A stretch of DNA of 64,000 nucleotides from Actimicrobium sp. CCC2.4. GTDB lineage: Bacteria; Pseudomonadota; Gammaproteobacteria; Burkholderiales; Burkholderiaceae_D. The translations under genes and the position numbers were made by a program. The DNA lies in NCBI RefSeq assembly GCF_034347385.1, contig NZ_CP133777.1, positions 496,001 through 560,000 of the forward strand, written 5' to 3'. This document shows positions 35,974 to 37,545 of this stretch, piece after piece. Each line of letters opens with the position of its first letter. Position 1 is the first letter of the stretch. A model generated the notes under the pieces. The model worked only from the letters and a program-made list of their open reading frames with translations, made no database searches and was not told where the DNA came from.

Positions 35974-36612
35974 TTAGCTCCGGGCAAAGGCAATGCGCGC
36001 ACCAAGTGCAATGAAGGCGGCGCCGACGCAGCGTTCCAGCCAGAGCCTGGCACGCTGGCTGGAACCAGCCCGTCGTGCCAGCGTTCCGGAAACCAATGCA
36101 GTGCCGCAATTCCAGCCGGTCGACATCAGTACGAACACCACGCCAAGTATGAGAAAGGAAAGTGTCTTGCCCGTGGCATTCGGATTAACGAATTGGGGGA
36201 AAAAGGACAGGAAAAACAGTACAACCTTAGGATTGAGGAGGTTGGTGACCAGCGCCTGCCAGAAAATAACGCGCAGCGGACGGGCTGTGCTGGTTTTTGC
36301 TGGTACGCCTTCGACCGTGGCCCGCGTGAGCAGCATACGCAATCCGAGGTACATCAGATAGATGCCGCCAGCTAGCTTGATCAAGGTGAACGCCGTTGCC
36401 GAAGTTGCCAGCAGCGCACTCAAGCCGAGTGCCGCCGCGACCGCATGCACGCAGCATCCTGCAGAAATGCCCAGTGCGGATGTCAATCCTGCCGCACGCC
36501 CTTGCGCCACGCTGCGCCCGACGATAAAGGCAGTGTCGGGGCCGGGTGTGGCGTTGAGCAGGAGGACGGCCATCACGAAATAGCCAAAGTCGGTAACGCC
36601 GGGAATGCTCAT
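35974..36612 (-). CDS. LysE/RhtB-family amino-acid exporter
   Basis: A 212-residue inner-membrane protein with six hydrophobic segments. The N-terminal LLNATPGPDTAFIVGRSVAQGR is the LysE/RhtB signature, followed by AGCCVHAVAAALGLSALL and a NLLNPKVVLFFLSFFPQFV motif. The ATG at 36612 starts MSIPGVTDFGYF; the longer frame adds an unlikely basic leader. It exports amino acids or derivatives by proton antiport in the family; the substrate is unknown. Confidence 0.9.
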   Translation of the reverse strand: MSIPGVTDFGYFVMAVLLLNATPGPDTAFIVGRSVAQGRAAGLTSALGISAGCCVHAVAAALGLSALLATSATAFTLIKLAGGIYLMYLGLRMLLTRATVEGVPAKTSTARPLRVIFWQALVTNLLNPKVVLFFLSFFPQFVNPNATGKTLSFLILGVVFVLMSTGWNCGTALVSGTLARRAGSSQRARLWLERCVGAAFIALGARIAFARS

Positions 36613-36823: not shown

Positions 36824-36920
36824 GGTGCGACGCACAAATAATGTGGCATACTCGGGGCGTCTCCTCCATAACTCCTCCAAGAGTATGGATTTCAGCCCGC
36901 TCCTAGAGCGGGTTTTTTTT
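36824..36920 (+). ncRNA. Candidate small RNA with two CUCCUCC motifs
   Basis: On the plus strand, CATACTC at 36847-36853 pairs with GAGTATG at 36881-36887. The 27-base loop contains CTCCTCC twice (36861-36867 and 36872-36878), each complementary to a strong Shine-Dalgarno sequence. A textbook terminator follows at 36896-36920. No plausible ORF precedes the terminator, and both flanking genes are on the minus strand, so the terminator must serve an independent transcript. The 5' end is uncertain: weak -10 candidates allow a start near 36824 or near 36859. In the latter case the left stem arm would be part of the promoter. Confidence 0.55.
36896..36920 (+). terminator. Intrinsic terminator of the candidate small RNA
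   Basis: CCCGCTC (36896-36902), a three-base loop, GAGCGGG (36906-36912) and eight T residues. The T-run fixes the direction as plus strand. Confidence 0.85.
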
Positions 36921-36984: not shown

Positions 36985-37545
36985 TCAGATATTAAAAACC
37001 AGGCTACCCCTTGGCGGTGAAAAATCACCCAGACGCTCAATGAGCAAGGTGTCCAGGGCATCTTGCGGATTCAGGTGCAGATCCGAGTGGGCATGTACGT
37101 CCCACATCCGTTGTGTCAGATGAATGTGCCGGCGCAGGATCGCCTCAGTGCGACGATCGTCTGCCATCAGGCCCTCCGCGATGATCTGGAGTGCCTCCGG
37201 GCGGGCACCGACGGCTGCCGTCGCATGGGATTTGTGGATCATGAAGCGCGCGGTATCGCTGGCGATCCGGCGTTGACCTGCCAGAAATACGGTGACGGCA
37301 ATCGAGGCAACCGCACCGCCGTTGTACATCACCAGCTCCAGCGGGGCATTACGCAATGTGTTGTAGAGGCAAATGCCGTCGCTGACGTAACCGCCGTTCG
37401 ACTGCAGCAGGATGTGGGCAGTACCGATACCGTCGGCTGTCATTTTCCCGAGGGCGTCAAAAACCCGCCTGACCATGTCGCTGTTGATATCGCCGGCCAG
37501 GGTGAAGTAGCCATCGCCACGGTGTGTGTGTTTATTGTCAATCAT
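36985..37545 (-). CDS. Orphan ClpP-like serine protease
   Basis: A 186-residue protein of the ClpP/crotonase-type protease fold. It has LQSNGGYVSDGICLYNTLRN near residue 48 (ClpP-like SxGG), the nucleophile Ser in GGAVASIAVTVFLAGQRR near 82 and the catalytic His in ARFMIHKSHA near 106. It lacks the propeptide of housekeeping ClpP and no ClpX or other partner is adjacent. Such orphan ClpP-like proteins occur in Burkholderiales; the substrate is unknown. The candidate small RNA lies beyond its 3' end. Confidence 0.75.
   Translation of the reverse strand: MIDNKHTHRGDGYFTLAGDINSDMVRRVFDALGKMTADGIGTAHILLQSNGGYVSDGICLYNTLRNAPLELVMYNGGAVASIAVTVFLAGQRRIASDTARFMIHKSHATAAVGARPEALQIIAEGLMADDRRTEAILRRHIHLTQRMWDVHAHSDLHLNPQDALDTLLIERLGDFSPPRGSLVFNI

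Follow-up and report, generated by a model that had tools for sequence, protein, structure and literature searches.

Among the double-hairpin RNAs of Burkholderia cenocepacia, which carry CU-rich stretches with predicted pairings at ribosome binding sites, NcS27 slows growth when overexpressed and has the opposite effect when silenced (PMC5688073). S17 of Bordetella pertussis is Hfq-dependent and represses BP2158, and this repression is lost and then restored by compensatory mutations in the 5′ tail of the RNA and in its target, while S17 overexpression is not clearly toxic in E. coli and leaves exponential growth unimpaired (PMC11722255). Members of the same family cloned in E. coli inhibit growth, according to Kimelman 2012 as cited in PMC4603805. 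Here, we compare with these RNAs a locus of Actimicrobium sp. CCC2.4 that lies in a stretch of 64,000 nucleotides (contig NZ_CP133777.1, positions 496,001 to 560,000), the whole of which we call the window. The features of the locus are collected in Table 1.

Table 1. Features of the small RNA locus and its surroundings, in window positions
Feature	Position	Strand	Basis or remark
LysE-type exporter gene	likely 35974-36612	-	flank of the small RNA gap
Upstream block TTGTGGTGCGACGCACAAATAA	36820-36841		inverted repeat (TTGTG...CACAA; GTGCG A CGCAC)
Predicted -10 hexamer CATACT	36847-36852	+	alignment with relatives; TGG before it (extended -10 form)
CATACTC	36847-36853	+	sequence check
Small RNA of RF02278	36858-36921	+	covariance-model match
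Seed 1, unpaired 5′ tail CGUCUCC	36858-36864	+	fold prediction
CTCCTCC, copy 1	36861-36867	+	within GTCTCCTCC; between CATACTC and GAGTATG
Predicted hairpin 1	36865-36889	+	UCCAU-(A)-ACUC / GAGU-AUGGA, 9 pairs and one bulged base
CTCCTCC, copy 2	36872-36878	+	between CATACTC and GAGTATG
Seed 2, loop CUCCAA	36875-36880	+	3′ half of the second CUCCUCC
GAGTATG	36881-36887	+	sequence check
Predicted hairpin 2, rho-independent terminator	36894-36920	+	GCCCGCUC/GAGCGGGU, then U8
Terminator in DNA letters	end at 36920	+	GCCCGCTC/GAGCGGGT, G+C-rich, then 8 T
Clp-protease-like gene	36985-37545	-	flank of the small RNA gap

Membership of the RF02278 family

When the whole window was scanned against all Rfam families, RF02278 (Betaproteobacteria_toxic_sRNA, "double-hairpin RNAs") was the only one to exceed its curated cut-off, with a match of 54.3 bits (E 3.9e-8; gathering cut-off 50 bits) that covers model positions 1-64 of 64. 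The original prediction had proposed a small RNA with anti-Shine-Dalgarno-like seeds, which this match supports, and had recognised no named family, a statement that the match supersedes. Its reading of the letters agreed with a direct check of 36824-36920, where CATACTC, GAGTATG, both CTCCTCC copies and the terminator with T8 were all found in place, and so did its description of the gap, which holds no plausible genes and is flanked by the LysE-type and Clp-protease-like genes, both on the minus strand. Besides its score, the locus shares with the family an unpaired UGUCUCCUCC tail, a hairpin with a CU-rich loop followed by a terminator and a U run, and dispersed copies. Judged by sequence comparison, the E-value and the presence of homologues over the full length in the majority of genomes from the host's taxonomic family place the match far beyond chance, and the locus is a real, conserved small RNA gene and an unremarkable representative of a family already described. 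Among other candidates, anti-hemB (RF02837) reached 25.6 bits against a gathering cut-off of 49.5, and the matches to the Trp leader and OmrA-B were likewise far under their own cut-offs. Open frames of 62 and 68 aa are present on this strand, and supporting evidence for a small-ORF reading was not found.

The genome (4.15 Mb, one contig) contains three RF02278 copies over the cut-off, at 422458, 532858 and 1316220 (G000:C1). The two paralogues of the window copy (L001:1501-1565 and L002:1501-1563) keep seed 1 and have lost the second CUCCUCC (GTCTCATCTTTTTG, GTCTACCCAAATTG), so that within this genome the window copy alone has two motifs. At least one RF02278 copy is found in all four genomes of the genus and in 102 of the 116 genomes sampled from the host's taxonomic family, with matches in 107 of them and a copy number ranging from 0 to 21 per genome; the 14 control genomes had none at the cut-offs used there. 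Herbaspirillum seropedicae belongs to the Oxalobacteraceae, the family named in the original prediction. Four members are predicted in this species, with predicted transcripts of 93-115 nt (PMC7011215). In two genomes of one genus, four small RNA copies lie inside about 10-12 kb (G008:C113:125971-138070 and G108:C42:193860-203865). This genome and that of a relative also hold a short double-hairpin sequence (L004 and L015; TGTCCGCACC...GGTGTGGATTTTAGCCCCCGA...) without CUCCUCC, which scores 26-33 bits with RF02278 and is possibly a diverged cousin with another seed.

The neighbouring Clp-protease gene was found in 30 loci by a search that included Massilia and other Oxalobacteraceae, and a pattern search of these 30 placed the small RNA beside it in only two, both in the genus. 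The locus is thus of genus level, while the RNA family is wide. A phage search with a relative's sequence as query returned no match, and the one match bearing on a plasmid origin, on a Paraburkholderia plasmid, was distant.

Promoter, RNA start and secondary structure

At the site of CATACT, relatives have TATACT, CATACT or TAGACT, 11 to 6 bases ahead of the RNA start, and a T occupies position -6 in 28 of the 30 homologues whose gene start lies next to the promoter. This alignment identifies CATACT, previously read as the 5′ arm of a stem, as a predicted promoter -10 box, and the 5′ end of the RNA is most likely at about 36858-36860, 6-8 bases past it; the RF02278 model also starts at 36858. 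With such a start, the CATACTC arm probably lies outside the transcript. The -35 element of the window copy is poor (TTGTGG, 21 bases ahead of the -10 box). Both orthologous loci of the genus retain the upstream block with its inverted repeat, as seen in L011/L016 and in L009/L017 (GTGCGTTGCAC there), with the farther-upstream sequence diverging, and its only exact match in the genome is this site. A genome-wide operator was considered and rejected, as the palindrome has a single exact copy and shows no excess over the control at 3 mismatches. It is possible that it serves as a regulator site for this copy only, at the -35 region or between -35 and -10.

In the predicted mature RNA, seed 1 is unpaired with a probability of 0.97-1.00; together with the next three bases it forms GUCUCCUCC, which is complementary to GGAGGAGAC, and GTCTCCTC is invariant in 44 homologues. 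The helix UCCAU/AUGGA of hairpin 1 is 97.2% paired across relatives, with changes on both sides at three pairs and C-G/U-A at two, and its pairing collapses when the columns are slid by one. The window copy has mismatches at the two innermost pairs of the consensus helix and, in their place, the ACUC/GAGU extension with one bulge. Seed 2 is unpaired with a predicted probability of 0.99-1.00, and hairpin 2 is also a covarying helix, 93.6% paired in relatives. The hairpin 1 stem holds about half of each CUCCUCC, including the last UCC of the first, and each motif therefore exposes its other half, the first as the 5′ tail and the second as the loop. Both motifs of the original prediction thus stand, but not their full exposure in an open loop.

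A start upstream of 36847 would instead allow the originally proposed CATACTC/GAGTATG stem to form and to hold one large loop with both CUCCUCC copies, possibly in a precursor that is processed later. Indeed, longer forms are known among relatives (ncS27, 92 nt; S17L, 190 nt and RNase E-processed; the Herbaspirillum predictions, 93-115 nt), and the minimum-energy fold (-26.8 kcal/mol) contains this stem if transcription is taken to begin at 36847 or slightly upstream, but the stem is absent from the fold of the full span 36824-36920, and even where it forms, GGGG pairs with the second CUCC and partly closes the loop. The comparison with relatives, in which CATACT aligns with the -10 box, points the same way: all seven pairs are kept in genus orthologues only and 2-6 of the seven elsewhere, giving 67.5% pairing over 44 aligned homologues, with two of the seven pairs mostly broken (31/35 and 26/41 cells). 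We therefore regard the longer stem as improbable. The check in relatives that had been suggested for it upheld the conservation of seed 1 and not that of the stem; the covarying helix in the alignment is UCCAU/AUGGA, inside the RNA. The case cautions that one half of a tidy inverted repeat may turn out to be a promoter element.

Mechanism and candidate targets

We are confident that these observations are jointly best explained by a trans-acting RF02278 small RNA of about 62-64 nt, whose 5′ tail and CUCC loop would cover Shine-Dalgarno sites and thereby repress catabolic and transport genes. The sequence provides the family membership, the promoter-like -10 box, the two predicted hairpins, the three paralogues and the covarying hairpin 1, and the steps of action are modelled on the published relatives. 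RNA polymerase would start at about 36858 and stop at the U8 terminator, and the free GUCUCC(UCC) tail and the CUCC loop, aided by Hfq, would pair with a Shine-Dalgarno sequence extended as GGAG(GAG)AC, from which the ribosome would be shut out. Translation of a group of genes for transport and catabolism would then fall, mainly under nutrient limitation, and high expression would slow growth, hence the name 'toxic'. The multi-target repression through ribosome binding sites that had originally been proposed is thus carried forward by analogy with the mechanism published for relatives (PMC5688073, PMC11722255).

A general inhibition of growth could also arise if the CUCC motifs acted as a decoy or sponge that titrates the 30S subunit or another regulator, and both the resemblance of the seeds to the anti-Shine-Dalgarno tail and the growth inhibition of E. 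coli by cloned family members (Kimelman 2012, cited in PMC4603805) are compatible with it. The seeds, however, complement messages and not the 16S tail itself, and S17 hits specific targets, with repression restored by compensatory mutations and exponential growth unimpaired (PMC11722255), so we give a decoy very little credence. That there is no RNA gene here at all, but a flanking-gene terminator beside a chance C-rich stretch, is next to negligible. The hairpin with U8 would indeed halt transcription arriving from the left, but each flanking gene is read from the minus strand, and the paralogues, the predicted promoter, the covariation and the match over the whole Rfam model speak for a gene; in practice, its conservation already refutes this reading.

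For the trans-acting repressor, targets were sought by sequence pattern only. A plausible predicted direct target is a gene whose product is an acyl-CoA dehydrogenase by Pfam match (G000:C1:2987500-2988693, minus strand), with the start AACAGGAGGAGACAGC-ATG. Three species of the genus share the unchanged site GGAGGAGACAGC-ATG, and of 12 orthologues farther away, 8 retain the GGAGAC core amid altered surrounding sequence; the paralogue at 422458 would pair with the site at 10 of 10 bases and the window copy at 9. In 34 of 40 relatives, GGAGGAGAC is found ahead of ATG, far more commonly than the reversed pattern. GGAGAC is itself a common Shine-Dalgarno form (10/40, in a small and non-independent sample), and target matches are therefore weak evidence. 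As, in addition, BP1445, an acyl-CoA dehydrogenase that was a candidate target in B. pertussis, gave no response in a reporter assay (PMC11722255), we treat this gene as a lead only. The pattern search gave a second candidate, a BON-domain lipoprotein gene with GGAGGAG ahead of its start.

Wider relatives and comparison with known systems

According to the H. seropedicae study, toxic small RNAs have so far been found only in beta-proteobacteria (PMC7011215); PMC8780938 lists one match in Aeromonas salmonicida. Our class-wide scan with RF02278 returned sub-threshold matches of 38-49 bits in 14 genomes outside the order, nearly all with ACTCCTCCATCCTCCTTTGGTGG or a slightly altered form of it ahead of a GCGCGG-type terminator, and no other Rfam model described these RNAs better. 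R1, a model that we based on 11 of these RNAs and whose E-values are rough, matches 131 of the 370 sampled GTDB Gammaproteobacteria genomes, mostly with one copy each; three of the 131 belong to the window's order and nearly all lie outside Burkholderiales, and the phylum sample added a single weak match beyond the class. Many R1-type genes have TTGACA and TATTAG-like sequences upstream, and a leader some 35 bases long. Loci of this type are L109-L123 and L124-L153, for example L127 around 1501.

It is reasonably probable that the 'Betaproteobacteria' toxic small RNA is part of a much wider superfamily, with a usually single-copy relative, made of the core CUCCUCCAUCCUCCUUUGGUGG and a GCGCGG-type terminator, in about one-third of the sampled genomes of the class. 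Because these gammaproteobacterial relatives score just below the Rfam cut-off, they are unannotated, and the R1-type RNA may be new. Shared descent of the R1-type and beta-type RNAs is likely, and convergence is possible, so that we treat the superfamily as a lead. If the superfamily is real, the family name, the cut-off and the known range of RF02278 would change, and double-hairpin RNAs that repress many targets through anti-Shine-Dalgarno pairing would form an old and widespread layer of control in Gammaproteobacteria. The locus itself adds one more placed member, with promoter and structure, to a family of carbon-metabolism regulators in beta-proteobacteria; what is new here is the corrected structure and the signs of RF02278 kin well beyond the named group.

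The closest described systems are ncS03, ncS05, ncS27 and ncS62 of B. cenocepacia (PMC5688073, PMC4603805), to which the window RNA is related over the full length of the covariance model, and in both hosts several copies are dispersed over the genome. The order of the free UGUCUCCUCC tail, the hairpin with a CU-rich loop and the terminator is the same, as is the presence of a shared motif upstream of the genes. In contrast, the window RNA starts with CGUCUCC rather than UGUCUCC, one base is bulged out of its hairpin 1, whose loop reads CUCCAA, and the copy is preceded by a predicted promoter of its own that includes a palindrome but lacks a clear -35. S17 (PMC11722255) likewise has the core UGUCUCCUCC tail (Site 1), a CU-rich loop (Site 2) and nearly the same 5′ end, and represses by covering ribosome binding sites as described for the family; its short form, however, is released from a precursor of 190 nt by RNase E cleavage, without an adjacent promoter, whereas the predicted -10 box of the window copy lies directly upstream. 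NmsRA and NmsRB of Neisseria meningitidis (PMC5362039), likened to the window RNA by description and not by sequence, repress central metabolism and also expose anti-Shine-Dalgarno sequence twice, in a single-stranded region and in a loop, but are arranged in tandem and have three stem-loops. The alpha-r14 or cuckoo RNAs of alpha-proteobacteria (NfeR1; PMC10746234) resemble it in multi-target repression through a repeated unpaired anti-Shine-Dalgarno motif, CCUCCUCCC, but belong to another lineage and have another structure, with three hairpins that each carry this motif. The window RNA has two hairpins only, the second of which is a terminator without CCUCCUCCC, and the cuckoo RNAs are a different family that works alike.
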